From Phyllobacterium zundukense (GTDB lineage Bacteria; Pseudomonadota; Alphaproteobacteria; Rhizobiales; Rhizobiaceae): 64,000 bases of DNA. The notes beneath the pieces were generated by a model that worked only from the letters and a program-made list of their open reading frames with translations, ran no database searches and was not told the DNA's origin. Shown piece after piece: positions 7,396 to 20,397 of this stretch. The stretch spans positions 904,501 to 968,500 of the forward strand of contig NZ_CP017940.1 in the NCBI RefSeq assembly GCF_002764115.1. The letters run 5' to 3'. Numbering within the stretch: position 1 is the first letter of the stretch; each line of letters opens with the position of its first letter. A program made the position numbers and the translations under genes.

Positions 7396-8067
7396 TCAGT
7401 CATTGGGCGCGCGCATCCAATAGGCGATGTCCTTCCAGTCGGCGAACACCGCCACCGCGCCCTTGTCGAGGAGGGCTTGCGCATGTGACCCGTAGGTGTG
7501 CGCACCGCCGGTATAGCCGATGGCGGTCATGCCGGCGGCGACCGCGCCTTCAACACCGAAGGGTGAGTCCTCGATCACCACGCAGCCCTTTGGATCGGCC
7601 TTCATCTCGCTGGCGGCATGCAAAAAGAGGTCCGGTGCGGGCTTGCCGCGCTTGACCATGGATGAACTGTAGATCGCATTGCCAAAACAGGCAGCAAGGC
7701 CTGTCGTCTCAAGGCTGAAATGAATGCGTTCCAGTGATGAGGACGAGGCGACGCATCGCCGTGTCTCCAGCTTTTCAAGCAGTGCCTTGATGCCGGGTGT
7801 CGGCTGTAGTGACTGGCTGAACACACGTCTGGTTTCCGGCCACAGTCCGGTTTCCGCTGTATCCGGGAGCTGGTGGCCGGTCAGTTCGGCGATTCGCTTG
7901 ATGATGTCGGACTGCTTCATGCCAACGCATTGCGCGATCGTGCCTTCCGGGAGCGGCATTCCCTGATTGGCATAGACATTGTGATAGGCAAGAGCTGCCA
8001 GGGGCTCGCTGTCAACAAGCACGCCATCGCAATCAAATATCACCAGATCAAATCGGTTCTGCGGCAT
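7396..8067 (-). CDS. HAD-family sugar-phosphate phosphatase / phosphoglucomutase-like
   Basis: A 223-residue haloacid-dehalogenase-superfamily protein. Motif I is FDCDGVLVDSEPLA (nucleophile and acid Asp, residues about 9-15), the motif II serine lies in ASSSSLERI, the motif III lysine in KRGKPAPD, and motif IV is VVIEDSPFG. The helical cap after motif I and the DSEPL sequence place it near beta-phosphoglucomutase and GPH-type phosphatases; the substrate is not predictable. The start at 8067 has AGGA five bases upstream. It is divergent from the DRL gene, and a role in dephosphorylating a sugar phosphate of that locus is only conceivable. Confidence 0.85.
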   Translation of the reverse strand: MPQNRFDLVIFDCDGVLVDSEPLAALAYHNVYANQGMPLPEGTIAQCVGMKQSDIIKRIAELTGHQLPDTAETGLWPETRRVFSQSLQPTPGIKALLEKLETRRCVASSSSLERIHFSLETTGLAACFGNAIYSSSMVKRGKPAPDLFLHAASEMKADPKGCVVIEDSPFGVEGAVAAGMTAIGYTGGAHTYGSHAQALLDKGAVAVFADWKDIAYWMRAPND

Positions 8068-8140
8068 TTTCGTCCTCTTTATCACGCGCTTCACGGGCTT
8101 TTACCCGCCCGTCCTTACCGTTCTTATAATGCACATAGGT

Positions 8141-8187
8141 CTTGACTAAAATACAAATGTTCAATATTCGATGATTGTAATTTGAAC
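8141..8187 (+). promoter_or_regulatory. Promoter and putative operator of the DRL-aco operon
   Basis: A CTTGAC -35-like hexamer at 8141-8146 is followed by ACAAATGTTCAATATT at 8153-8168. The same 10-base box ACAAATGTTC plus an ATATT element recurs before gutM (13696-13711). Here GTTCAA (8159-8164) is also matched by an inverted TTGAAC (8182-8187). I infer a shared regulator site, most simply for the SorC-family protein encoded at 19369. Confidence 0.55.
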
Positions 8188-8225: not shown

Positions 8226-9545
8226 ATGGCTACGAATGTTGCATTGACGGGATTGGCGCGAGACATGCAGGCCCGGGCGGAGACGGGCCGACCGATCCGC
8301 ATCGGCCTGATCGGTTCGGGCGAGATGGGCACGGACATCGTTACCCGGGTGGCGCATATGCCCGGCATCGAGATCGGGGCGATTTCCGAACTGAACCTGC
8401 CGAACGCCCTGAAGGCGGTCGATATCGCCTATCAGGAACAGGGCCATTCGCGCGAAGTCGCCACTGCCTCCAGCTTGAGCGCGGCGATGGAGGCCGGCAA
8501 GATCGCCGTCACCAGTGATGCCAATCTCATCCTCGAGAACGATCTGATCGACGTGGTCATCGATGCGACCGGCGTGCCGGCGGTCGGGGCGGAGATCGGC
8601 CTGCGGGCGATGGAACACGGCAAGCATCTGGTGATGATGAATGTCGAGGCGGACGTGACCATCGGCGCCTATCTGAAGAGCGAGGCCGACCGGCTCGGCG
8701 TCACCTATTCGCTGGGGGCGGGCGATGAGCCATCGTCCTGCATGGAGCTGATCGAGTTCGTCTCGGCCATGGGCCATCCGATCGTTGCCGCCGGCAAGGG
8801 CAAGAACAACCCGCTCAACATCGATGCCATTCCCGACGATTACGAGGAAGAAGCCGCCCGCCGCCACATGAATGTGCGCATGCTGGTCGAGTTCGTCGAC
8901 GGCTCGAAAACCATGGTGGAGATGGCGGCGATCGCCAATGCCACCGGGCTGGTGCCGGACCGGCCGGGCATGCATGGCCCGGCGGCCACGCTGGATCAAC
9001 TGTCGAAGGTGCTGGTGCCGGAAAAGGATGGGGGCGTGCTGTCGAAGGTCGGTGTCGTCGACTATTCGATCGGCAAGGGCGTGGCGCCCGGCGTCTTCGT
9101 CGTCGCCGACATGTCGCATCCGCGCATTTGCGAACGCATGGAAGATTTGAAGATGGGCAAGGGCCCGTATTTCACCTTCCACCGGCCGTATCATCTGACC
9201 TCGCTCGAGGTGCCGCTGACCTGCGCCCGCGTCGTGCTCTACGGCAAGGCCGACATGGTGCCGCTGGCCAAGCCGGTCGCAGAGGTCTGTGCGGTGGCGA
9301 AGAAGGATCTGAAGCCCGGCGACACCCTCGATGCCATCGGCGAATATTGCTACCGCGCCTGGATCATGACGGCGGGCGAAGCGCGCAGTGCCGGCGCCAT
9401 CCCCTGCGGCCTGTTGCAGGGCGGCAGCGTCACCGCCCCGATCGCCAAGGGCGAGCTGATCACCAGCGTCAATGCCGCCCCGGCCGCCGGCTCCAAGATC
9501 GTCGAATTGCGGGCACGGCAGGACAGGCTCGTCTACGGCGCGTGA
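8226..9545 (+). CDS. DXR-like (DRL / DXR-II) oxidoreductase with C-terminal SAF-type domain
   Basis: A 439-residue protein of the homoserine-dehydrogenase-like COG4091 family. It has an N-terminal Rossmann fold (GLIGSGEMG, residues 27-35), a middle region with MNVEADVTIG, SLGAGDEPSSCMELIEFV and GKGKNNPLN, and a C-terminal SAF-type domain (about 350-430). This matches my recollection of Brucella abortus DRL, which converts 1-deoxy-D-xylulose 5-phosphate to 2-C-methyl-D-erythritol 4-phosphate with NADPH. GGAG precedes the ATG. The codons are GC-richer than those of most neighbours. It lies upstream of acetoin-type dehydrogenase genes, so a catabolic (reverse) role is possible. Another substrate cannot be excluded. 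Confidence 0.75.
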   Translation: MATNVALTGLARDMQARAETGRPIRIGLIGSGEMGTDIVTRVAHMPGIEIGAISELNLPNALKAVDIAYQEQGHSREVATASSLSAAMEAGKIAVTSDANLILENDLIDVVIDATGVPAVGAEIGLRAMEHGKHLVMMNVEADVTIGAYLKSEADRLGVTYSLGAGDEPSSCMELIEFVSAMGHPIVAAGKGKNNPLNIDAIPDDYEEEAARRHMNVRMLVEFVDGSKTMVEMAAIANATGLVPDRPGMHGPAATLDQLSKVLVPEKDGGVLSKVGVVDYSIGKGVAPGVFVVADMSHPRICERMEDLKMGKGPYFTFHRPYHLTSLEVPLTCARVVLYGKADMVPLAKPVAEVCAVAKKDLKPGDTLDAIGEYCYRAWIMTAGEARSAGAIPCGLLQGGSVTAPIAKGELITSVNAAPAAGSKIVELRARQDRLVYGA

Positions 9546-9604
9546 GCGACGCAGACTCATCGACGCAGAGAAAAGTTCAAGGCAACCAGACAAGGAGTGC
9601 CGAC

Positions 9605-10636
9605 ATGGCATCCGCCAGAAGTTCAAGTGCCAAGCGACAAGATGACGGGAGCAATCTTCCCTTCGCGTTCCGGCATTATCCCCCGGAACAGCTGAAGGAA
9701 GCCCTGCGCAAGATGTATCTTATCCGCCGGTTCGAAGAGGGTGCGGAGGAATCCTATACGCGTGGCCTCATTCACGGCACGATGCATCTTTCCATCGGTC
9801 AGGAAGCCAGCGCAGTCGGCATTTCCCTGCCGCTCAGCGAGGATGACATGATCACCTCGACCCATCGCGGTCATGGTCATTGCATCGCCAAGGGTGCGGA
9901 AGTGTCGAAGATGTTCGCAGAGTTCTTCGGCAAGGAGACCGGATATTGCAAGGGCCGCGGCGGCTCGATGCATATTGCCGATGTCTCGAAGGGCAATCTC
10001 GGCGCCAACGGTATTGTCGGCGGCGGCATCCCGATTGCCGTCGGTGCAGCGCTTTCGGCCAAGAAACAGAAGAACGGCAAGGTCGTCATCTCCTATTTCG
10101 GCGATGGCGCCAACAATGAGGGTGCCTTTCACGAGGCGCTCAACATGGCTTCGGTCTGGAAGCTTCCGGTCGTTTTCGTCTGCGAAAACAATGGCTATGG
10201 CATGTCGACTTCGACCAAGCGTTCCACCGCCGTCGCCAATGTCGCCGACCGCGCCGTTGCCTATAACATGCCGGGCGTGATCGTCGACGGCAACAATCTG
10301 TCGGATGTCGCCGAGGCCTCGCATGGGGCGGTCGAGCGAGCACGCCGGGGCGAGGGGCCGACGCTGATCGAGTGCAAGACCTATCGCCACCGCGGCCATT
10401 CCAAGAGCGATCGCAACCGATATCGCACCAAGGAAGAAATCGAGGACTGGATCACAAATCGCGATCCTATCCATCTGTTCGAAGATCAGCTGAAGGAATT
10501 CGGTTTCGTCAACGACGCCGATATCAAAGCAATCCGTGCGGATGCCGAGAAGGAAATCGCCGAAGCGATCGAGTTCGCCAAGAACAGCCCATCGCCAACC
10601 CTCGATAATCTGACACGCGACGTTTACACGGACTGA
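9605..10636 (+). CDS. acoA: Acetoin/pyruvate dehydrogenase-type E1 alpha subunit
   Basis: A 343-residue TPP-dependent dehydrogenase E1 alpha subunit. The thiamine-diphosphate motif is visible as GDGANNEGAFHEALN ending in ENNGYG (about residues 165-200), together with GLIHGTMHLSIGQEA and the histidine-rich THRGHGHCIAKG loop. The length fits AcoA and PdhA. I favour AcoA because the E2 partner carries an alpha/beta-hydrolase domain, a hallmark of acetoin-cleaving complexes. AAGGAG lies seven bases before the ATG. The acceptor substrate may be a larger 1-deoxyketose rather than acetoin. Confidence 0.85.
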   Translation: MASARSSSAKRQDDGSNLPFAFRHYPPEQLKEALRKMYLIRRFEEGAEESYTRGLIHGTMHLSIGQEASAVGISLPLSEDDMITSTHRGHGHCIAKGAEVSKMFAEFFGKETGYCKGRGGSMHIADVSKGNLGANGIVGGGIPIAVGAALSAKKQKNGKVVISYFGDGANNEGAFHEALNMASVWKLPVVFVCENNGYGMSTSTKRSTAVANVADRAVAYNMPGVIVDGNNLSDVAEASHGAVERARRGEGPTLIECKTYRHRGHSKSDRNRYRTKEEIEDWITNRDPIHLFEDQLKEFGFVNDADIKAIRADAEKEIAEAIEFAKNSPSPTLDNLTRDVYTD

Positions 10637-10642
10637 AATTAG

Positions 10643-11641
10643 ATGAATGAGATAATCCGCGAACTGAGCTACTCGCAAGCGATCCAGGAAGCCATGGCGA
10701 TTGCCATGGAGGCCGATGACCGCGTGTTCCTGATGGGTGAGGATATCGGCGTCTATGGCGGTGCCTTTCAGGTGACCGGCGATCTGGTGCAGCGTTTCGG
10801 CGAAGACCGGGTAATGGATACGCCGATCTCAGAACTTGGCGGTGCGGGTGTCGCCGTCGGTGCGGCATTAACTGGCATGCGGCCGATCTTCGAATTCCAG
10901 TTCTCGGATTTTGCCGCGCTGGCGATGGAGCAGATCGTCAACCAGGCGGCCAAGATCCGCTACATGCTTGGCGGCGCAGTCTCGGTGCCGCTGGTGATGC
11001 GATTTCCAGCGGGTTCCGGCACCGGCGCGGCGGCACAGCACAGCCAGAGCCTGGAAGCGTGGTTCGGCCATGTGCCGGGGCTCAAGGTGATCCAGCCTTC
11101 GACGCCTTACGATGCCAAGGGTATGCTGCTGGCGGCTATCGAAGACCCGGATCCTGTGATGATCTTCGAACACAAGCTTCTCTACAAGATGAAAGGTCCA
11201 GTGCCCGAGGGCCATTACACCGTGCCGATCGGCAAGGCCGCGGTCGTTCGTGAAGGCACGGACCTGACCATCGTTGCCTCTGCCATCATGGTGCACAAGG
11301 CGCTCGAAGCGGCGCAGGAGCTCGCAAAGGAAGGCATCAACGTTGAGGTCGTCGATCTGCGTACCGTGCGGCCGATGGACAAGGAGACGATCATCGCCAG
11401 CGTCAAGAAGACGTCGAAGCTGATGTGCGTCTATGAAGGCGTCAAGACGCTGGGCGTCGGCGCGGAAGTCAGCGCGATGATCGCCGAGAGCGAGGCCTTC
11501 GACTATCTCGATGCGCCGATCGTGCGCCTTGGCGGTGCCGAAACACCAATTCCCTACAATCCTGAGCTGGAAAAGGCGACCGTGCCGCAAGTACCAGGCA
11601 TTCTGAAGAGCGCCCGTGATCTGGTTAAAGGGGTTCGTTAG
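10643..11641 (+). CDS. acoB: Acetoin/pyruvate dehydrogenase-type E1 beta subunit
   Basis: A 332-residue transketolase-like beta subunit that pairs with the preceding alpha subunit to form the TPP active site. Typical elements are [17 protein letters not shown], the [20 protein letters not shown] region, [20 protein letters not shown] and [13 protein letters not shown]. It starts six bases after the alpha subunit stop and is followed three bases later by the E2 gene, so the three are translationally linked in one operon. Confidence 0.87.
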
Positions 11642-11644
11642 GCC

Positions 11645-12973
11645 ATGCCCGTCGAAGTGATCCTGCCCAAGGTCGATATGGATATGGAGAGCGGCCAGAT
11701 CTCGCGCTGGTACGCCAAGGATGGCGACAGCGTATCCAAGGGCCAGCTGCTGTTCGAAATCGAAACCGACAAGGCGGCCATGGAAGTGGATGCGCCGTCC
11801 TCGGGTATCTTGCGCGATGTGAAGCCGCAGGGCGCAGTCGTACCTGTGGGACAGGCTGTGGCGTGGATCTACGGCGAGGGCGAAGTCTATAACGCGGCGG
11901 CACCAGCCAAGGAGCAGGCCGAGAAACCTGTCGTGGCCGAAGAAGCAAAGTCTGCCGTTCAACCGGCTGAAACTGCGCCCGTGAAACCTGCTCCAGTCGC
12001 TCCCGAGACCAATGGGGTCCGGGCCACGCCTCTGGCACGGCGGATCGCCAGGGAAGCCGGGATCGATCTAAGCTCCCTCAAGGGCTCCGGCCCGAAAGGC
12101 CGTATCCAGAAAAAAGACGTCGAGGGTGGTTTTGCCGTAACGGCGCCTGTTGTTGCCAGGCCATCAGCGCCCGCACGATCGCCGGTGGTTCAAGACAGCG
12201 ATGCTCCCCTGCACGCGGTCTGGCTGCGCCAGGGCAATGGTTCAGGCCGGGCGCCGCTGGTCCTTATCCATGGCTTCGGGTCCGATCTCAACAGCTGGCG
12301 TCCGATGCTGGGCGGCGGAACACTGGACAATCCCATCCTTGCTATCGATCTGCCGGGTCATGGCGGTTCGACGCACACTATTCCGGACGAGCTCGACGGG
12401 ATCGCCACCCAAGTCGAGCAAACCATTGCTGCCCATTATTCGGGCCCGATCATCCTGGTCGGACACTCCTTTGGCGGCGCGATAGCAACGGAAATTGCTG
12501 CGCGCAGCAATCTCGATATCCGTGCTTTGACGCTGATCGCGCCGGCTGGGCTCGGTCCGGAAATCAATGGTGCATTCCTTTCAGGATTTGTCCGCGCCCG
12601 CACGGAGGCAAGCCTCGTCGCCTGGATGAAGCAGCTGGTGCCGGATGAAAGCCTGCTGACCAAGCCATTCATCAACGCGACGCTGGCGCAATCACAAGAT
12701 GTGGCGTTGCGCGATGCGCAGCAGCTCGTTGCCGACCGGTTCTTTGCCGACGGGACTCAGGTTTTCGGTATAAGGCAAAGCCTCGGCAAGCTGACAATTC
12801 CCGTCCGCGTCATCTTCGGCGCGGCGGACCGTGTCATTCCTGCGGTGCATGCGACCGGCCTGCCAGGCGAGATTGCGGTGCACGTCTTTGCCGGGACGGG
12901 CCATATGCCCCAGCTCGAGCAGCGCGAGAAAATCATGCGGATCCTGCGCGAGGTCAGCCAGTCGGCAGGGTAG
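11645..12973 (+). CDS. acoC: Acetoin-type E2: lipoyl domain plus alpha/beta-hydrolase (AcoC)
   Basis: A 442-residue protein. An N-terminal lipoyl domain has the lipoylated Lys43 in ETDKAAMEV. A Pro/Ala linker follows, then an E3-binding domain (about 125-160, RATPLARRIAREAGIDL), and then an alpha/beta-hydrolase fold in place of the normal acyltransferase domain. The oxyanion loop is HGFGSD (209-214) and the nucleophile elbow GHSFGG (Ser275); a histidine in GTGHMPQLE is probably catalytic. This layout is that of AcoC from acetoin dehydrogenase complexes. No E3 gene is present in the window, so a shared dihydrolipoamide dehydrogenase must serve it. Its last 20 bases overlap a convergent gene. 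Confidence 0.87.
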   Translation: MPVEVILPKVDMDMESGQISRWYAKDGDSVSKGQLLFEIETDKAAMEVDAPSSGILRDVKPQGAVVPVGQAVAWIYGEGEVYNAAAPAKEQAEKPVVAEEAKSAVQPAETAPVKPAPVAPETNGVRATPLARRIAREAGIDLSSLKGSGPKGRIQKKDVEGGFAVTAPVVARPSAPARSPVVQDSDAPLHAVWLRQGNGSGRAPLVLIHGFGSDLNSWRPMLGGGTLDNPILAIDLPGHGGSTHTIPDELDGIATQVEQTIAAHYSGPIILVGHSFGGAIATEIAARSNLDIRALTLIAPAGLGPEINGAFLSGFVRARTEASLVAWMKQLVPDESLLTKPFINATLAQSQDVALRDAQQLVADRFFADGTQVFGIRQSLGKLTIPVRVIFGAADRVIPAVHATGLPGEIAVHVFAGTGHMPQLEQREKIMRILREVSQSAG

Positions 12974-13592
12974 TGTTGCCGGACTTTGACGGGACCATCG
13001 CCCGCTGAATGGCGCTGCGGGCGGAAGCCAGGTTGGGCATGACCCAATTGGGTTCGGCGCCAAGAAACTTGTCAAGAAATGCAATGGCATAGCCCGGCAT
13101 TTCCTGAACGTTTTCGCGGTAGGACCACCAAGTACGCAGATCATCGGCGCATTTATCGATCTGCGGCGCCGTACCGAATTCCTGCTCGCATATGGCCGCA
13201 ATCGCCCCGACGCAGTAGTTCGTATAAAGGAAGCCTTCAGGCCAGAATGCGATGATATCCTGCTTCTCGGAGGCTTGAGAATCGCCGTGCTTGGGCTGGC
13301 CGCGTACCTTTGCCGGAGCTTCGGTGATGAGCTCCTTGAGAACGAGACCGGCGGCGAAAATAATGAAATCCTTCCGGTCGAGCCGGGCGTAGGATTTCTG
13401 CTGTTCGACCGTTTCGATCCAGTTGAGAAACGCCCGTGTCAGCTTGGTTTCATCAATGGCAAAGTGATAGCCATAATGATCGGCAATGACCGCGGCATTC
13501 TTGCGAAAAGCCATGCGGAACCAGCGCAGTTGGCGCAGGCGATGCCGTAAATCCGGCATGTGGACCAATTCGTCTCTAAACAGAAAATCCAT
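12954..13592 (-). CDS. Unknown protein in the PTS/aco locus
   Basis: A 212-residue protein that I do not recognise. The N-terminal part is basic and helical (RHRLRQLRWFRMAFRKN). A central part has LDRKDFIIFAAGLVLKELI, and the C-terminal part has aromatic and Cys residues (EGFLYTNYCVGAIAAICEQEF, WWSYRENVQEMPGY). No signal peptide or membrane anchor is evident. It runs against the aco operon and overlaps the last 20 bases of acoC tail to tail. Start ATG 13592 has AAGG only one base upstream, so an internal ATG such as 13559 could be used. Its position between two units sharing an operator suggests a link to the locus, but that is inference. Confidence 0.65.
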   Translation of the reverse strand: MDFLFRDELVHMPDLRHRLRQLRWFRMAFRKNAAVIADHYGYHFAIDETKLTRAFLNWIETVEQQKSYARLDRKDFIIFAAGLVLKELITEAPAKVRGQPKHGDSQASEKQDIIAFWPEGFLYTNYCVGAIAAICEQEFGTAPQIDKCADDLRTWWSYRENVQEMPGYAIAFLDKFLGAEPNWVMPNLASARSAIQRAMVPSKSGNTTLPTG

Positions 13593-13680
13593 GCCTTCTC
13601 ACTTTCAATTTCAGTGTAGCACGTCATACGCTTTCATGCAGCACAAGCCAAGTTTTCAGCGGCTCAGGAAATCATACATA

Positions 13681-13711
13681 TTGACATTGCAAAAAACAAA
13701 TGTTCTATATT
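13681..13711 (+). promoter_or_regulatory. Promoter and putative operator of the gutM-PTS operon
   Basis: A consensus -35 TTGACA (13681-13686) is followed at 18 bp by CTATAT (13705-13710). The overlapping box ACAAATGTTC plus TATATT (13696-13711) is nearly identical to the one before the DRL gene. The box covers the -10 region, a position that fits repression. Confidence 0.6.
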
Positions 13712-13764
13712 TTTTCGTTCGATCATAGCATATGTTGGCGGTCGGGCATTGGGAGGTTGAAGAC

Positions 13765-14199
13765 ATGGCGATGTGGCAATGGGGATTGCTGGCCCTTGGT
13801 TTCTTGTGGGCGTTGCAGTCACTGGGCGTCTGGTACCAGATGCGCCACTACAGCGATGTGATGAAGGGCATCACTTCCAAATATAATGATGGATTTGTCG
13901 GCGCGGGCAATGTTCGCGGGCGGTTTGGCAAAGGGGTGATCGTTCTCATTCTCGTCACGCCTGATCTCACCATCCAGCGTTTTTTGGTTATGAGCGGCCG
14001 GTCGGTTTTTGCGAAATTCAAGCGGCGCACGGAGTTCGAGGGTATCTCGCTCGATGCACTGCGGACAGATCCGGTCATGGCCGGTGTGGAGGAGCCCGCT
14101 ATGGCCAAGGCGGCAGAACGGGCGATTGAACAAATAGACAAGGCAAGGGCAGAACCGACGCGGCCGGGTCTAATTGGGATTAAGGCAGTCAACGCATAG
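13765..14199 (+). CDS. gutM: GutM/SrlM-family glucitol operon activator-like protein
   Basis: A 144-residue protein with one N-terminal membrane helix (WQWGLLALGFLWALQSLGVW) followed by a cytoplasmic domain with GNVRGRFGKGVIVLILVTPD, as in the GutM/SrlM family that accompanies glucitol PTS operons. In enteric bacteria GutM modulates operon expression; its mechanism is poorly known. The ATG at 13765 has GGGAGG upstream. An upstream in-frame start at 13732 lies close to the -10 region and is rejected. It is the first gene of the PTS operon. Confidence 0.8.
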   Translation: MAMWQWGLLALGFLWALQSLGVWYQMRHYSDVMKGITSKYNDGFVGAGNVRGRFGKGVIVLILVTPDLTIQRFLVMSGRSVFAKFKRRTEFEGISLDALRTDPVMAGVEEPAMAKAAERAIEQIDKARAEPTRPGLIGIKAVNA

Positions 14200-14241
14200 G
14201 GACGGCCGTTTCGGAAGGGCGGTCGATTAGGAGGAGGGAAC

Positions 14242-15000
14242 ATGTCAATTCTAACAATGTTGGCGCAACATGCTGACATCGCCGCGCACCATATTTCGGT
14301 GGCGGGAGCGATGGTTTCGGATGCTGCGCTTCACGGCAAACAGGCCATTGACCATGCAGGCAATGACCTTGTGGTGCTGGCGCAGTCGACTGGCGACATT
14401 ACCGTCGAGGAATTCAAGGACAAGCTGAAGAACGTCCAGCAGGAAGAGCAGCTTGGCTGGCTCACCAGCGCTGGTAAATACTTCATCGGTATTTTCCAGA
14501 AGGGCGGCGAGGTCTTTGCCGGCTTCGTTACGGGCATCATCCCAACCCTCGTTGTGCTGATGACGGCATTCTACGCACTGACAGAGCTTGTCGGTGAAGA
14601 GCGCGTGCATGGCATCGCCCGCGGCGCAGGCCGTATCGCCCTGACGCGCTACACGGTCCTGCCAGTGCTTTCCGTGTTCTTCCTGACCAATCCAATGGCC
14701 TATACGTTCGGATCGTTTCTTGAAGAAAAGCACAAGCCAGCCTTCTACGATGCGGCTGTTTCCTATGTGCATCCGCCACTCGGCCTGTTTCCGCACATCA
14801 ATCCCGGCGAATATTTCGTCTGGGGCGGTATCCTCGTCGCGCTTCTCGAACTGGAGAAGAAGGGCGCTGTTCCCACCGGCTATCACATCAACGTCGCCAT
14901 CTGGTATGCGCTCGTTGGTCTGGTGGTCATCCTGCTCAAAGGCATGCTGACCGAACGCATTACTGCGATCATGGCGCGCCGTCAGGGCATCGAGCTTTAA
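14242..15000 (+). CDS. srlA: PTS glucitol/sorbitol-family EIIC component
   Basis: A 252-residue membrane protein. From about residue 73 it matches SrlA/GutA: FIGIFQKGGEVFAGFVTGII, then FLTNPMAYTFGSFLEEKHKP and GLFPHINPGEYFVWGG. It should form the sugar channel together with the following EIIBC subunit. The enteric SrlA is about 187 residues, so this one carries an extra N-terminal segment of roughly 65-70 residues (MSILTMLAQH onward) that is amphipathic and unrelated to the family. AGGAGGAGGG-like sequence precedes the ATG. The true substrate may be another polyol than glucitol. Confidence 0.88.
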   Translation: MSILTMLAQHADIAAHHISVAGAMVSDAALHGKQAIDHAGNDLVVLAQSTGDITVEEFKDKLKNVQQEEQLGWLTSAGKYFIGIFQKGGEVFAGFVTGIIPTLVVLMTAFYALTELVGEERVHGIARGAGRIALTRYTVLPVLSVFFLTNPMAYTFGSFLEEKHKPAFYDAAVSYVHPPLGLFPHINPGEYFVWGGILVALLELEKKGAVPTGYHINVAIWYALVGLVVILLKGMLTERITAIMARRQGIEL

Positions 15001-15021
15001 TCCGGGGCGGGGAACAGTAAA

Positions 15022-16038
15022 ATGTCAAAGACTTATACAGCAGTCAAAATATCCAGGGGCTCCAATGGTTGGGGCGGCCCGCTCGTCATCCAGTTGACGC
15101 CTCAGCGCAACAAGGTTGTGTCCGTCACCGGTGGTGGCATCCATCCGGTCGCACGCCGTATTGCCGAACTCACCGGCGGCGAAGCCGTTGACGGCTTCAA
15201 GGCGCCGCCCGTTGAAGGTGAAATGGGCGTTGTGGTCGTCGATTGCGGCGGCACGGCGCGCTGCGGTGTCTATCCGCGCAAGCGTATTCCGACCGTCAAC
15301 CTGACACCGGTCGGTCAGGCAGGCCCGCTCGCCCAGTTCATCACCGAGGACATCTATGTCTCCGGCGTGAAGGAAGGCAATATCGAGCTCGCCGACGGAT
15401 CGCAGCCCGCAGCTGTTGCCGGAGCAAGGTCAGACCCGACGCCGGCAGAACTGGCAGCCTCGATGGCCAGCCGCACACAGGCTGGATCCGACGCAGGTGA
15501 AGGCGGACTGATTGGCTTCATCAGTACCATTGGCCGTGCCATGGGTCGCGTGGTTGGCATTTTCTTCAATGCCGGTCGCCGTACCATCGACCAGGTTGTC
15601 CGTAACGTTCTGCCGTTCATGGCGTTCGTCACCATGCTCATCGGCTTCATCCTCTATACGGGGATCGGCGATGTTCTGGCCCAGCCCCTGGGACCGCTTG
15701 CCAACAATATTGTCGGCTTGCTGATCATTTCCGCCATTTGCGGTCTGCCCTTCCTGTCGCCCATATTGGGACCGGGTGCGGTCATTGCGCAGGTCATCGG
15801 TGTTGCGATCATCGGTCCGCAGATTGCCAATGGCACGATCTCGCCGGCAATGGCTCTGCCCGCGCTGTTTGCCTATAATACGCAGGTGGGCTGCGACTTC
15901 GTCCCGGTCGGCCTGGCACTTGGTGAAGCCAAGCCCAAGACCATCGAAATCGGTGTTCCGGCGGTGTTGATCAGCCGCCAGATCATGGGACCGATTTCGG
16001 TGTTGATCGCCTGGGTTGTCAGCCTGATCGTATTCTGA
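15022..16038 (+). CDS. srlE: PTS glucitol/sorbitol-family EIIBC component
   Basis: A 338-residue protein. The N-terminal EIIB domain (about residues 1-125) has the VVVDCGGTARCGVYPRK signature with Cys75 and Cys81, one of which is the phospho-carrier. A charged linker (about 125-170) is followed by a membrane domain with FMAFVTMLIGFILYTGIGD, GLPFLSPILGPGAVIAQVIG and VGCDFVPVGLALGEA. This is the SrlE/GutE pattern. It receives phosphate from SrlB and completes the permease with SrlA. It starts 21 bases after srlA. Confidence 0.9.
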   Translation: MSKTYTAVKISRGSNGWGGPLVIQLTPQRNKVVSVTGGGIHPVARRIAELTGGEAVDGFKAPPVEGEMGVVVVDCGGTARCGVYPRKRIPTVNLTPVGQAGPLAQFITEDIYVSGVKEGNIELADGSQPAAVAGARSDPTPAELAASMASRTQAGSDAGEGGLIGFISTIGRAMGRVVGIFFNAGRRTIDQVVRNVLPFMAFVTMLIGFILYTGIGDVLAQPLGPLANNIVGLLIISAICGLPFLSPILGPGAVIAQVIGVAIIGPQIANGTISPAMALPALFAYNTQVGCDFVPVGLALGEAKPKTIEIGVPAVLISRQIMGPISVLIAWVVSLIVF

Positions 16039-16071
16039 TCTTCAACCAACAAGAAAATGAGGTTCGCCATC

Positions 16072-16449
16072 ATGTCAGTCCTATTGAAAACACGGGTAAC
16101 AGCCGTCGGACCTGAGGTGGCGGATCTTGCAGAGGGGGGCGTTGTCATCCTGTTTGCAGATGGCGCGCCGCCTGAACTTGCGGAAGTTTCGATCCTGCAT
16201 AGCGTGGAAGGCAAGCCTTCCGACACGACGCCGCCCGTGGGATCGGCAATCCAGATCGGCGATGTATCTGCAAAAATCACCGGTATTGGCGATTATGCCT
16301 GGCAGAAGGTAAAAGACATTGGCCACGTGGTCATCACGTTCAACGGTTCCGACCAGGTTGAACGGCCGGGCGAGATTTGCGCCTCGGAAATCGATACCGA
16401 AAAATTGGTGTCAGCGTTGAAGGTTGGAACGACAATTACCATCGGGTGA
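16072..16449 (+). CDS. srlB: PTS glucitol/sorbitol-family EIIA component
   Basis: A 125-residue cytoplasmic EIIA of the glucitol class. His43 in EVSILHSVEG corresponds to the phospho-histidine of enteric SrlB. Length and motifs DIGHVVITFNGSDQVERPGEI fit the family. ATG 16072 was chosen because GAGG lies nine bases upstream, inside the short extension that begins at ATG 16057. It passes phosphate from the HPr-EI fusion encoded next to the EIIB domain of SrlE. Confidence 0.88.
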   Translation: MSVLLKTRVTAVGPEVADLAEGGVVILFADGAPPELAEVSILHSVEGKPSDTTPPVGSAIQIGDVSAKITGIGDYAWQKVKDIGHVVITFNGSDQVERPGEICASEIDTEKLVSALKVGTTITIG

Positions 16450-16493
16450 TTATCTGAACCAGTAACAGAATGAACTGCCGAAGAGAGAACTGA

Positions 16494-18491
16494 ATGGAAC
16501 GCTCGACTATTGTGCGGGTGCATGACGGATTGCATGCGCGGCCAGCCACCCGATTTGTCAAACTCGCCAAGAGTTTCGAATCGGATATCGAGCTGATCAA
16601 GGCGGACAAATCGGTCAGTGCCAAAAGCTCGGTCAAGTTGATGCTGCTCGGCGTCAAGGAGAATGAGGAAGTCACTGTTCGGGCAACCGGCGCCGACGCG
16701 ATTGAAGCTATCGAGGCGCTGATCGGTTATCTCGAAAATCCTCATTCCGGCACGGCAGAAGACGGTGCTCCCGCAGGCGAGACAAAACCGGTGGAACCGG
16801 GTCCCTCCAAGGCGCAGGTGGTTCTCTCTTCGGACGAAACGAACGCCGCAGGTAATTTGCGCGGGGTCGCGGCAAGCGAAGGCGTTGCAATCGGACCCGC
16901 ATTCGGGTTTTTTCCTGCAGAAATCAAACATGAAAACCGGCTGCTCAGCGCGGAAGAAATCTCGAATGAAATCGCACGGCTGAAGCAAGGTTTCGCCACT
17001 GTACAACAGCGGATGGATAAATCGCTGGCGACGAAGAATCTGGCCGAAAGCGATCGCGGTATCATCGCTGCACTCAAGGACATTGCCTGCGACGATGAAC
17101 TGACCGGTGCGGCCACGGCACTTGTCCATGGCGGTATCGATGCGGTGTCGGCGGTCATCGGCGCGACATCGAGGATCGCCGCCGATTTCGCGTCGATGGA
17201 TGATCCTTACCTCGTTGCCCGCGCCGATGATGTGAATGCCGTCGGGCGGCAGATATGCCTTGCCCTTCTGGGCCAGGACGACGCCAATCTCGATGCGATT
17301 CCGGCAGGTGCCATCCTGATCGCCGAGGATATCGGTGCCTGGGACCTGGCCCGCGCCCCGCTGAAACGCATTGCCGGCGTTATTTGCGGGCACGGCGGCG
17401 CAACCTCGCATGTGGCGATCATCGCGCGTGCGCACGGCATTCCGGCAGTCCTCGGGCTTGGCCGCTCCGTGCACGAACTGCAACATATCAAGACTGTCGC
17501 GCTGGATGGCAACAATGGCGATGTCTTTGCCGATCCCGATCAGGCGACAGCCGATCGCTTCCGCGAGCAAATCGGCAAGGCGGAAACCGAAAAGCTGGCG
17601 CTGCGGGCTTACAAGGACGCGATACCGAAGCGGGCCGACGGGACGATCATTGAGATCGCCGCCAATCTGGGATCGCTGGAAGAGATCGAAGCTGCCCAGG
17701 AGGCAGGCGCGATGGGAGTTGGATTGTTCCGCACCGAGCTTCTGTTCATGCGGCACATCCATTTGCCTTCGGAAGATCTGCAGGCAGAGACCTATGCAAC
17801 GCTCGCCAAGGCTTTTGCACCCTATCCGGTGATTGTCCGCACGCTGGATATTGGCGGTGACAAGCCGATCTCCGGCATCGATTTCCCCGACGAGGAAAAT
17901 CCCTTTCTCGGCTGGCGCGGTATCCGCATGTGCCTGGACCGGCCGGACGTGTTCAAACCGCAGCTGCGCGCGCTTCTGCGGGCGGCAGTGCATGGCAATA
18001 TCAAGGTGATGCTGCCAATGGTTTCAGGTCTCGATGAAGTCCGTGCAACACGCGCACTGATCGAGGAGTGCGCGGTAGAACTGAAGGCAGAGCACAAGGC
18101 TTACGCCATGTTCGATCTTGGTATCATGGTCGAAACGCCGGCGGCGGTGATGATTGCGCCAATACTTGCCAAGGAAGTCGCGTTTTTCTCAATCGGCACC
18201 AATGATTTGACACAGTATATCATGGCCGCCGACCGTCTTAACCCGACCGTCGCCAAGCTGAACGATGTGACCCACCCGGCAGTGATGGCCGCCATTGAAC
18301 TGACGGCGAAGGCTGGCGTTGAAGCGGGCATCATGGTCGGTATGTGCGGTGAGGCGGCTGGCCGTCCGGATCTGATCCCGGCATTTGTCGGGATGGGCCT
18401 GACAGAGCTCAGCATGAGCCCGTCATCGATCCAGCGCGCGAAGAAATGCGTTCTTGCCCTAGGGCAAATGGGGGATCAGGAAGGCAAATAG
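16494..18491 (+). CDS. HPr-Enzyme I fusion phosphotransferase of the PTS
   Basis: A 665-residue fusion. Residues 1-85 form HPr with His14 in DGLHARPATR and Ser46 in KSSVKLM (the HPr kinase target in other bacteria). A linker (about 86-120) is followed by Enzyme I with phospho-His306 in GHGGATSHVAIIARAHGIPA, the PEP-binding barrel (GLFRTELLFM, RTLDIGGDKP, FFSIGTNDLTQY) and the catalytic Cys in MVGMCGEAAG. It takes phosphate from PEP and feeds SrlB. The GAF domain of nitrogen-PTS EI is absent, so this is a sugar-type EI. It is the last gene of the operon and overlaps a convergent gene by 33 bases. Confidence 0.93.
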   Translation: MERSTIVRVHDGLHARPATRFVKLAKSFESDIELIKADKSVSAKSSVKLMLLGVKENEEVTVRATGADAIEAIEALIGYLENPHSGTAEDGAPAGETKPVEPGPSKAQVVLSSDETNAAGNLRGVAASEGVAIGPAFGFFPAEIKHENRLLSAEEISNEIARLKQGFATVQQRMDKSLATKNLAESDRGIIAALKDIACDDELTGAATALVHGGIDAVSAVIGATSRIAADFASMDDPYLVARADDVNAVGRQICLALLGQDDANLDAIPAGAILIAEDIGAWDLARAPLKRIAGVICGHGGATSHVAIIARAHGIPAVLGLGRSVHELQHIKTVALDGNNGDVFADPDQATADRFREQIGKAETEKLALRAYKDAIPKRADGTIIEIAANLGSLEEIEAAQEAGAMGVGLFRTELLFMRHIHLPSEDLQAETYATLAKAFAPYPVIVRTLDIGGDKPISGIDFPDEENPFLGWRGIRMCLDRPDVFKPQLRALLRAAVHGNIKVMLPMVSGLDEVRATRALIEECAVELKAEHKAYAMFDLGIMVETPAAVMIAPILAKEVAFFSIGTNDLTQYIMAADRLNPTVAKLNDVTHPAVMAAIELTAKAGVEAGIMVGMCGEAAGRPDLIPAFVGMGLTELSMSPSSIQRAKKCVLALGQMGDQEGK

Positions 18492-19265
18492 ACCGGACAA
18501 CGCTCCGGCCGGCTCCGCTGCTGCGATGGCTTGATCGAACTTGTCCTGCCGGGCCTGCAGGGCCAGGAGAGCGCTTTCGACCAGTTTCTCGTCGCCCGGT
18601 TCATTGTCCGCATAGGTTGCAAGTCCGATGGCAAGGGCGATCGACGAGAAGCACAGATATTCAACGTCCTTGCCCGGCTGAGCGTCTTGATGCGCGGGCA
18701 GTGTCAAAGGTTCGCAGTGGTAGTGCGACTGAAGTTCGATCGCCAAGGTGGCGCAGGCCGTCGCGATATCGTGCAGCCCGCCATCTTCCTTTGCCGCCCG
18801 CAAGAATACGGCGTGACGGCGAATCATTGTGGCGTGGACAGCGGAGAAGGTTGCTTCATGAATCAGGGCATTGTTCGATCCGAGAACGCTCAACACGCGT
18901 TTTGTCAGATAATAGATATCGCGGCGGAAAAGCGCCTCGCCCGTGCCGGCATCCGCCGGGAAATAGGCGGCGAGACCGCGGGCCTCGATTGTCGTCGAGT
19001 GCGCGGCGGGGTCTTGCGATACGAGGGAAATCGAAATGGTCTCGGCCGCAGTCAGAGCCTTGTCCACCGCGCGTGCGGCCTTGCCGAACAGGATATCCGG
19101 CAAATTCTGCGGCACCGGCTCTGCGCCCTGGCGGCTCGCCCTGATCAGATGGCGAACGTCGCGCAACCGGTCCTTCAGACTGACGACGATCTCGTTCGAA
19201 ATGTCCCTGATCATGGTGGCAAACCTTTGCTCGCAAGTGGATAAGACTTTGTATCTGTTTTTCAT
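18459..19265 (-). CDS. Unknown protein convergent with the PTS operon
   Basis: A 268-residue, mostly helical soluble protein that I do not recognise. Visible stretches include MIRDISNEIVVSLKDRLRD, LFRRDIYYLTKRVLSVLG, ATMIRRHAVFLRAAKEDGG and HYHCEPLTLPAHQD with a His/Cys cluster. No signal peptide is evident. Its 3' end overlaps that of the HPr-EI gene by 33 bases, and it is divergent from the SorC regulator with which it shares a short promoter region. Start 19265 has no good ribosome site; ATG 19214, with AAGG nine bases upstream, is a reasonable alternative. Position suggests a role in the same pathway or its control. Confidence 0.68.
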   Translation of the reverse strand: MKNRYKVLSTCEQRFATMIRDISNEIVVSLKDRLRDVRHLIRASRQGAEPVPQNLPDILFGKAARAVDKALTAAETISISLVSQDPAAHSTTIEARGLAAYFPADAGTGEALFRRDIYYLTKRVLSVLGSNNALIHEATFSAVHATMIRRHAVFLRAAKEDGGLHDIATACATLAIELQSHYHCEPLTLPAHQDAQPGKDVEYLCFSSIALAIGLATYADNEPGDEKLVESALLALQARQDKFDQAIAAAEPAGALSGLFAFLIPHLP

Positions 19266-19368
19266 GGCTTGCTAAACAACATTCTGGTGGAGTGTACTGT
19301 GGATAATGCGTTGCTTCGATGCAGCGTCGCCGCTGCCGGGGAAACGAAAACAATCAAAGGGGGGACGA

Positions 19369-20397
19369 TTGGCCGATCGACGCAAGCGAACGAATGGTAC
19401 GGCGCACAGCTCCCAAAAGACTCCTTCGGATGCGGGGCAGCCTGACACGAAGATCAGCCGCATGCGCATGCGCGCTGCCTGGATGTACTATATCGAGCAA
19501 ATGACGCAGAACGAGATTGCCGAGATCCTCGGCGTCGGGCGTGTGACGATCGTGCGTATGCTGGCCGAAGCGCGGGCACGCAACGAGGTCAAGATCGGCA
19601 TTCAGGGCTATCTTTCTGACCTCGTCGCGCTCGAAAGACAGGTCGAAAAGCAATTTGGCCTCGAAAAGGTGATCATCGCGCCTCTGTCCCATCCGGACAA
19701 TGATCCAATCCCGGCGATCGCCGCTGCAACGGGCGATTATCTTTCGAGCGTCGTCAGCAACGGCATGCGTGTTGGTGTTGGCTGGGGGAGGACGCTGCTT
19801 AACACATTGTCCTATATCGAGGCCAAGGCGCTGGAGGATTTCACCGTCATTTCGCTGCTGGGCGGCATCAGCCAGCCGCGCCGGTTCAATCCGGCGGAAT
19901 TCGCCTGGCAGTTTGCCCAGCTGTTCCAGGGCGATGGCTATCTCATTCCCGCCCCGGCCATGGTGGACAGTATCGAGACCAAGACGGCGCTGATCGAGCG
20001 TTGTGGCCTGAAAAGCGTGTTCGAGATGGCCGAGGACCTCGATCTCGTTCTCCTCAGCGTCGGTGCGATCGAAACGGCGTCGAGCACGCCTTATCACATC
20101 GGCTTTCTCAACGAGGGTCATCAGTCGTCCCTGGCGGCACGCGGGGCCGTGGGCGATCTGCTGTTCCATTTCTACGACAAAGCGGGCCGTCTCGTCGATC
20201 ACCCGATCCATGATCTCGTCATGTCCGTCGGCATCGACACGGTGCAGCGTGTGCCGGCGCGGGTGCTGACCTCGGGCGGCAAGGAAAAGATCAGGGCGCT
20301 TTACGGCGCGATGACGCTGGTTCGCCCGACCGTGTTCATTACCGACGAGGAAAGTGCCCGGCGCTTGCTCGTGCTGGCCGAACAGGAGAAGGGCTGA
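19369..20397 (+). CDS. SorC/DeoR-family sugar-phosphate-responsive regulator
   Basis: A 342-residue SorC-family regulator. The N-terminal helix-turn-helix (AAWMYYIEQMTQNEIAEIL, then GVGRVTIVRMLAEARA) is followed by a sugar-phosphate-binding domain with GVGWGRTL, LLGGISQP and the C-terminal SVGIDTVQRVPARVLTSGG. Members such as EryD, SorC and DeoR-like regulators sense polyols or phosphosugars of the pathway they control. TTG 19369 follows a very strong AAAGGGGGGA site; ATG 19306 in the same frame would add 21 residues but has a poor site. It is the most likely reader of the ACAAATGTTC boxes at 8153 and 13696. Confidence 0.88.
   Translation: MADRRKRTNGTAHSSQKTPSDAGQPDTKISRMRMRAAWMYYIEQMTQNEIAEILGVGRVTIVRMLAEARARNEVKIGIQGYLSDLVALERQVEKQFGLEKVIIAPLSHPDNDPIPAIAAATGDYLSSVVSNGMRVGVGWGRTLLNTLSYIEAKALEDFTVISLLGGISQPRRFNPAEFAWQFAQLFQGDGYLIPAPAMVDSIETKTALIERCGLKSVFEMAEDLDLVLLSVGAIETASSTPYHIGFLNEGHQSSLAARGAVGDLLFHFYDKAGRLVDHPIHDLVMSVGIDTVQRVPARVLTSGGKEKIRALYGAMTLVRPTVFITDEESARRLLVLAEQEKG

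Follow-up and report, generated by a model that had tools for sequence, protein, structure and literature searches.

Three described systems are among the closest to the locus analyzed here. The DRL of Brucella abortus (PDB 3UPL), a type II 1-deoxy-D-xylulose 5-phosphate (DXP) reductoisomerase (DXR), has a known role in isoprenoid biosynthesis. The AcoABC acetoin dehydrogenase complex is built from E1-alpha, E1-beta, and an AcoC-type E2, and the glucitol (srl/gut) phosphotransferase system (PTS) operon encodes EIIC, EIIBC, EIIA, and GutM. Genes resembling all three lie together in Phyllobacterium zundukense, within a stretch of 64,000 nucleotides (positions 904,501 to 968,500 of contig NZ_CP017940.1) that we refer to as the window. 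These genes form a conserved cassette that, as our analysis suggests, probably serves to break down 2-C-methyl-D-erythritol, by way of 2-C-methyl-D-erythritol 4-phosphate (MEP) and then DXP, into acetyl-CoA and glyceraldehyde 3-phosphate.

The window DRL matches the Brucella enzyme over its full length, shares its signature residues, and is predicted to act on the same DXP/MEP pair. However, its gene lies in an operon-like unit with E1-E2 genes beside an importer, and its reaction is predicted to run in reverse. The E1-E2 genes have the composition of AcoABC and its motif THRGHGHC, whereas the E1 falls into an alphaproteobacterial clade of its own, carries GHS[KR]SD in place of GHFEGD, and has DRL as a partner; no acetoin reductase or butanediol dehydrogenase was found in the 13 cluster genes scanned. 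The PTS genes correspond to those of the srl/gut operon, but the cluster has its own HPr-Enzyme I fusion. Pfam and NCBIfam models gave no match to sorbitol-6-phosphate dehydrogenase (SrlD) in the same 13 genes, and an ordinary sorbitol operon was rejected on that ground; DRL is predicted to stand in the role of the polyol-phosphate dehydrogenase. Two relatives of DRL in Deinococcus lie in nucleotide-sugar clusters, away from PTS or E1 genes.

Proposed pathway and organization of the locus

The model that we infer covers the substrate, the site of phosphorylation, the direction of DRL, the cleavage of DXP, the products, and control of both units by the SorC-type regulator. 2-C-methyl-D-erythritol would be imported and phosphorylated to MEP, likely by the glucitol-class PTS of the cluster. 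DRL would then convert MEP to DXP, likely in reverse of the biosynthetic direction, and DXP would be split into acetyl-CoA and glyceraldehyde 3-phosphate, likely by the E1-E2 complex. This cleavage would be the carbon-carbon bond formation of DXP synthase (DXS) in reverse, with the two-carbon unit passed to lipoyl and CoA. In sum, methylerythritol, phosphoenolpyruvate, NADP, NAD, and CoA would yield glyceraldehyde 3-phosphate, acetyl-CoA, pyruvate, NADPH, and NADH. The DXR reaction is reversible, with the MEP side favored; because oxidative thiolysis is in effect irreversible, it would draw the DRL equilibrium backwards.

The features of the locus are as follows.

7396..8094, minus strand: haloacid dehalogenase (HAD)-family sugar phosphatase; the best NCBIfam match, under the cut-off, is the 6-phosphogluconate phosphatase model
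8153..8168, plus strand: operator-like box ACAAATGTTCAATATT, 5' of DRL
8226..9545, plus strand: DRL (DXR type II), DXP/MEP reductoisomerase; Pfam PF21135 and match to 3upl
9605..10636, plus strand: E1-alpha of a thiamine diphosphate (ThDP)-dependent complex; motif THRGHGHC, loop GHSKSDRN; start set at the ATG at 9605
10643..11641, plus strand: E1-beta; profile matches and tree
11645..12973, plus strand: E2 of AcoC type (lipoyl, E3-binding, and alpha/beta hydrolase domains); Pfam and NCBIfam
12954..13592, minus strand: 212-aa protein; relatives in PTS-type and ABC-type cassettes
13696..13711, plus strand: second operator-like box ACAAATGTTCTATATT, 5' of gutM
13765..14199, plus strand: GutM; Pfam PF06923; an upstream ATG at 13732 is a possible start
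14242..15000, plus strand: glucitol-class PTS EIIC (SrlA); Pfam PF03608
15022..16038, plus strand: glucitol-class PTS EIIBC (SrlE); Pfam PF03612 and PF07663
16057..16449, plus strand: glucitol-class PTS EIIA (SrlB); Pfam PF03829
16494..18491, plus strand: HPr-Enzyme I fusion; Pfam PTS-HPr and three PEP-utilising domains
18459..19265, minus strand: 268-aa protein; relatives in other cassettes
19306..20397, plus strand: SorC/DeoR-type regulator with sugar-binding domain; Pfam Sugar-bind PF04198; the start possibly lies further in

Two co-oriented units thus stand head to tail, DRL-E1alpha-E1beta-E2 and gutM-srlA-srlE-srlB-HPrEI, the latter followed by the regulator gene. Two minus-strand proteins occupy the gaps of the locus, and the HAD phosphatase gene is divergent from DRL. 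Each gene named in the first-pass annotation (DRL, E1-E2, GutM, a full glucitol PTS, HPr-Enzyme I, and SorC) lies where that annotation had placed it; the HAD phosphatase and the two minus-strand proteins had been omitted. The E2 scores 395 bits against the NCBIfam acetoin E2 model (cut-off 307), and the regulator matched the NCBIfam DeoR model under its cut-off. The HPr-Enzyme I fusion likely serves the cluster PTS. A homologue of the HAD phosphatase is present within many PTS-type clusters, and this enzyme is likely a vent for surplus sugar phosphate.

Published work, cited here by PMC number, bears on both the proposed substrate and the proposed cleavage. Plants hold free methylerythritol together with its 1- and 4-glucosides (PMC11192765), and 2-methyltetrols occur in Amazonian air masses (PMC11868990). 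According to a 2012 paper (PMC3424233), pyruvate and glyceraldehyde are converted to 1-deoxy-D-xylulose by purified pyruvate dehydrogenase (PDH), and DXP is produced in vivo as a result of mutant E. coli PDH; the same paper cites a 1986 study whose title has pyruvate and acetoin dehydrogenases forming 1-deoxyketoses. The component families and polyol catabolism are known, but no description of methylerythritol catabolism was found in searches of open-licence papers, a scope outside which most subscription papers fall, and the excerpt of PMC5864225 contains nothing on methyltetrols. The first-pass annotation had proposed such catabolism from the window; at the level of sequence, the proposal gains support from swapped importers, an acyloin-type E1 motif, and the gene set of a Bacillota plasmid, all described below.

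DRL, its twin copy, and canonical DXR

The window DRL matches the Pfam model DRL_cat with 230 bits and aligns with the B. abortus structure without gaps at E 4.9e-216; its nearest relatives are from Phyllobacterium. The signature residues of DXR type II, as defined in section 6 of PMC3847144, are K191, K193, T229, H250, and R320. All five are present in the window DRL by alignment, and they are intact in 167 of the 170 DRL loci scored, overlapping stretches being counted. No canonical DXR (Pfam PF08436) was found in the window genome (6.2 Mb, 6 contigs), whereas 9 of 14 control genomes were positive. One clear dxs is present (406 bits), the remaining matches scoring at most 32 bits.

Three DRL-domain genes occur in this genome: that of the cluster, a twin on contig C6 that encodes the identical protein, and a distant paralogue. 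The twin (C6:177881-179197; L128:9379-10698) differs from the window gene at 13 of 1320 bases, all synonymous, and the likeness ends at the gene ends, with the 60-base flanks agreeing at 17 and 24 positions. The cluster DRL and its second copy differ by 6, 22, 27, 18, and 38 bases in five further Phyllobacterium genomes, compared with 111 to 145 differences between cluster copies of different species (three comparisons). In a quick DRL tree (97 rows left of 164 once near-copies were removed, row L164 being a DRL without E1), the two copies pair within the genome in the window genome, P. pellucidum, P. sp. 628, and P. endophyticum; pairing was scored in those three of the five genomes for which both copies were kept as rows. 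Most simply, the two copies would be held alike by gene conversion.

Because the genome has no DXR and a second copy encodes the identical protein, the cluster DRL should be a true, working DXP/MEP enzyme that is able to perform the biosynthetic reaction. This bears on the possibility that the chemistry is as we propose and the substrate is another: 2-C-methyl-D-threitol, a product of methylerythritol glucoside, or some other 2-C-branched polyol, with DRL and E1-E2 acting on its phosphate. The specificity of PTS, ABC (ATP-binding cassette), and MFS (major facilitator superfamily) importers is unreadable from sequence, and importers vary among cassettes. We nevertheless consider a different substrate unlikely, given that the only other strong DRL in a genome lacking DXR is the same protein, to which MEP and DXP should be suited, and given the intact signature residues across the loci scored.

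Functional second DRL paralogues are reported for Mesorhizobium loti and Ochrobactrum anthropi (PMC3847144). Because all eight genomes searched from the Brucella/Ochrobactrum group (G066-G068 and G071-G075, seven so named and one Rhizobiales isolate beside them) contain one E1-linked DRL at 89-90% and another DRL at 75-76%, we infer that one of these functional paralogues is probably of the E1-linked type.

Other DRL copies have neighborhoods or features of their own. The twin is the last gene behind an apparent ABC importer for sugars, of the ribose type, whose open reading frames were read as a binding protein, an ATPase, and two permeases, and ABC ATPase matches adjoin several other Phyllobacterium DRL copies. 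The third DRL-domain gene of the window genome (C1:2432229-2433497; L003, L129) is 33% identical and lacks T229, H250, and R320 by alignment; it likely encodes an oxidoreductase of the DLO type, related to the DXR-II-like oxidoreductases DLO1 and DLO2 (PMC3847144). In Aminobacter anthyllidis, the E1-linked DRL (L085:10001-11317) contains one in-frame TAG and the stand-alone copy (L077) is open.

Across a sample of 199 family genomes, 130 have a strong DRL (E below 1e-100; 150 rows less 20 weak), 72 have DXR, and 7 have both (G108, G129, G162, G163, G165, G184, and G263), so that in general DRL does replace DXR across the family. In five of the seven double carriers, DRL stands beside E1 inside a cassette (L074, L130, L131, L132, and L133); G263 has the same coordinates as the Pseudohoeflea locus L074. 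In G165 (L134), a PfkB kinase gene adjoins DRL and the contig ends 146 bases behind DRL, and G129 (L135) lacks E1, its DXR match being only partial. Among 37 DRL carriers, a chosen part of the genomes behind the 80 nearest loci that includes the window genome, DXR matched over its full domain in two, Pseudohoeflea and Shinella sumterensis. Each has a single DRL, located in an E1-PTS-SorC cassette. The comparison of genomes with canonical dxr that the first-pass annotation had suggested thus identified cassette carriers. That annotation had also held that absence of dxr would speak for a simply biosynthetic DRL. The gene is indeed absent, yet the protein-identical second DRL on another contig and the DXR-bearing cassette carriers mean that its absence does not refute catabolism.

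The E1 component

In scoring the E1-alpha motifs, partial alignments were excluded. THRGHGH followed by C or S is present in all 93 distinct DRL-linked E1-alpha sequences scored and also in both E1s compared from butanediol/acetoin clusters (L191, L192). The PDH-like E1 of the window genome has GYRDHGHM at the position of THRGHGHC, a form not present in the window E1-alpha. A loop reads GHSKSD or GHSRSD in 92 of the 93 DRL-linked sequences (one was not covered) and GHFEGD in both acetoin E1s; GHFEGD is not present in the window E1-alpha. The alphaproteobacterial DRL-linked E1s form their own clade (seven sequences; support 100/99 for beta and 99/99 for alpha), separate from the two other E1s of the genome and from the acetoin E1s of Acinetobacter and Enterococcus. 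Identity of E1-beta to that of the window is 80-91% in the alphaproteobacterial cassettes compared and 62% in Priestia, versus 44-48% for PDH, the two other E1s of the genome, and acetoin E1s. We read the DRL-linked E1 as a putative acyloin-cleaving E1 with an altered substrate pocket.

The description of the complex as acetoin-type therefore holds for the motif THRGHGHC and the AcoC-type E2; the loop and the alphaproteobacterial clade are its own. Acetoin catabolism was rejected, since loop and partners are unlike those of the E1s in the two butanediol/acetoin clusters. The DRL-linked E1s did not all fall into one clade; that of Priestia weakly joins the E1 of a Clostridioides difficile plasmid without DRL.

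Two related plasmid loci were noticed. The C. difficile plasmid (L181:7014-12934) encodes a SorC-type regulator, E1-alpha, E1-beta, E2, and E3 together with an MFS importer; glycoside hydrolase genes lie alongside, and the stretch has no DRL. It is possibly another acyloin-type sugar pathway. On a plasmid of Shinella sp. H4-D48 (L183:2012-12957), an acetoin-like E1-E2-E3 is accompanied by genes for a transaldolase-family protein, a class II aldolase, a HAD protein, and triose-phosphate isomerase; this may be another sugar route based on an E1-E2 complex.

Cassette distribution, regulation, and alternative explanations

We confirmed 580 DRL loci and counted conservation in the best 80 of them. 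In 69 of these 80 nearest loci, E1-alpha and DRL are at most 3.5 kb apart; the gut PTS is also present within the fetched stretch in 27, and PTS without E1 occurs in none. EII-GUT is rare, being found in 25 of the 199 family genomes, 24 of which have a strong DRL, and in 17 the two lie within 9 kb. The other eight are G003 (DRL elsewhere), G200 (DRL-E1-E2 at one place and PTS-SorC at another), G174 (no strong DRL listed), and five with separate contigs.

DRL matched 110 plasmid records, and 20 chosen from the 60 matches listed were examined, four unannotated ones by tblastn. E1-E2 stands beside DRL in 11 of the 20, from Sinorhizobium, Agrobacterium, Rhizobium (two), Shinella, Nitratireductor, Terrarubrum, Pseudoroseomonas, Paracoccus, Allorhizobium, and Priestia. 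The gut PTS is present and E1 absent in five (two Listeria, one Enterococcus, and two Ligilactobacillus), one (Pararhizobium) has an FGGY-like kinase and no E1, and three distant records (two Deinococcus and one Natronococcus; 35-38% identical) have neither.

The entry module is exchanged among cassettes. In Sinorhizobium meliloti Rm41, Agrobacterium, and Rhizobium sophoriradicis, an ABC importer and a sugar kinase take the place of the PTS and an E3 is added; the kinase of the S. meliloti cassette is PfkB by Pfam. The cassettes of L123 and L124 combine an ABC importer and PfkB kinase with E3 and lipoyl synthase. The plasmid of Priestia, a member of the Bacillota, encodes DRL, E1-alpha, E1-beta, E2, E3, GutM, the gut PTS, and HPr; it also has two regulators of the SorC type, an FGGY kinase, and an importer of the MFS class. 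Complete cassettes all combine import and phosphorylation with DRL, an E1-E2 of lipoyl type, and a sugar-binding regulator. An ABC importer downstream in L057 was considered as a cassette member and set aside, no tie to the cassette having been established.

The two minus-strand proteins of the window recur as well: clear relatives of the 212-aa protein are found across PTS- and ABC-type cassettes, whereas the 268-aa family is weak between these types. The former has no Pfam or NCBIfam match and the latter no Pfam match. Their predicted structures are chiefly helical (mean pLDDT 76.1 and 70.3, respectively), and no solved fold matched either model with E <0.7. On the plasmid of Rhizobium sp. 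B21/90 (L168:20813-26040), an operon for the biosynthesis of thiamine (thiC, thiS, thiazole synthase, and thiD) lies behind the cassette; DXP is a precursor of the thiazole, and E1 requires ThDP.

A box common to both units had been noted at first reading, and this was confirmed: the boxes 5' of DRL and gutM are identical at 15 of 16 positions. With at most 4 mismatches, the box occurs in 79 of 84 distinct regions upstream of E1-linked DRLs with at least 80% identity to that of the window, in 22 of 1300 shuffled regions, and 5' of 3 of 17 unlinked DRLs at the same identity (L012, L135, L166); these counts are not independent, as the box derives from the window itself and close relatives have ancestry in common. 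Among DRLs at 50-80% identity, it precedes 7 of 10 E1-linked and 2 of 19 unlinked genes. The twin of the window DRL has 8 mismatches to the box despite encoding the identical protein, for which shared ancestry is no explanation. The box is commoner than chance and is a mark of E1-linked DRL genes. The SorC-type regulator is predicted to bind both boxes and control both units.

These findings bear on the view that DRL is a mere housekeeping isoprenoid enzyme whose neighbor, a polyol or acetoin operon, is unrelated to it. Such a role would fit the lack of canonical DXR in the window genome and the substitution of DRL and DXR for each other across the family. It is improbable, however, in light of the second DRL with identical protein, the cassettes on plasmid records and in the two genomes whose DXR match covers the whole domain, the repetition of the arrangement with different importers and also in Bacillota, and the box that marks E1-linked copies. 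A purely biosynthetic DRL was rejected on the identical-protein twin, the DXR-bearing carriers, and the recurring arrangement. Salvage, in which imported methylerythritol would feed MEP to isoprenoids and E1-E2 would serve another acyloin or 2-oxo acid, is very unlikely: MEP could, from what is known of the pathway, go straight into IspD, and several clusters lack E1, but salvage has no need for DRL, which E1 accompanies in most of the nearest loci, none of them with PTS and no E1.

Several observations weigh against methylerythritol catabolism as the function of the cassette. E1 is absent from 11 of the 80 nearest DRL loci, mostly in Phyllobacterium (7) and Aminobacter (2). Among the 69 E1-linked loci, the stretch fetched contains no PTS in 42; it fell short of full flanks in 25 of the 42 and not in 17. 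The cluster of Phyllobacterium G003 (L137, C16) has E1-E2, PTS, and SorC without DRL; its sole DRL match, on C3, may serve both pathways. The unlinked Phyllobacterium copy L012 has the box with zero mismatches. As for E1, the GHSKSD loop is not exclusive to DRL-linked enzymes because the C. difficile E1 (L181) has it without DRL; the Priestia E1 is not firmly grouped with the alphaproteobacterial ones; binding of the phosphate of DXP by the loop lysine is a guess; and, of the names given in 120 listed relatives, E1-beta is mostly called PDH or alpha-ketoacid enzyme. Finally, E1 is absent from the stretches examined of the DRL and gut PTS clusters in Listeria, Enterococcus, and Ligilactobacillus and from the loci with DRL and an FGGY-like kinase (L138, L151, L159, L188); therefore, DXP would have another fate there.

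Both of the latter groups have further genes. On the Ligilactobacillus plasmids (L122:8007-15578, L185), DRL, the gut PTS, GutM, and a regulator are followed by fructose-6-phosphate aldolase (fsa) and transketolase, and the aldolase may stand in for E1-E2. The FGGY kinase was confirmed by Pfam in L151 and matched weakly by tblastn in the other three; these loci, with weak SorC matches and ABC importer genes, may form a second class of sugar locus linked to DRL.

Methylerythritol catabolism by this cassette, if true, would supply a reason for DXR type II to be present where DXR already exists, a matter raised in sections 7 and 9 of PMC3847144. It would also expose mis-annotation of E1s, since the names given to the listed relatives are mostly PDH or alpha-ketoacid dehydrogenase. 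Because fosmidomycin inhibits DXR and also DRL (PMC3424233), a catabolic pool of DRL may affect the use of this compound. It is tempting to speculate, tentatively and at somewhat less than even chance, that DXR type II was originally catabolic, born in methylerythritol-eating cassettes and then captured for isoprenoid biosynthesis, with gene conversion in Phyllobacterium displaying the capture. Such an origin would explain a published puzzle, namely that Finegoldia and Anaerococcus have DXR type II and no other genes of the MEP or mevalonate pathways.

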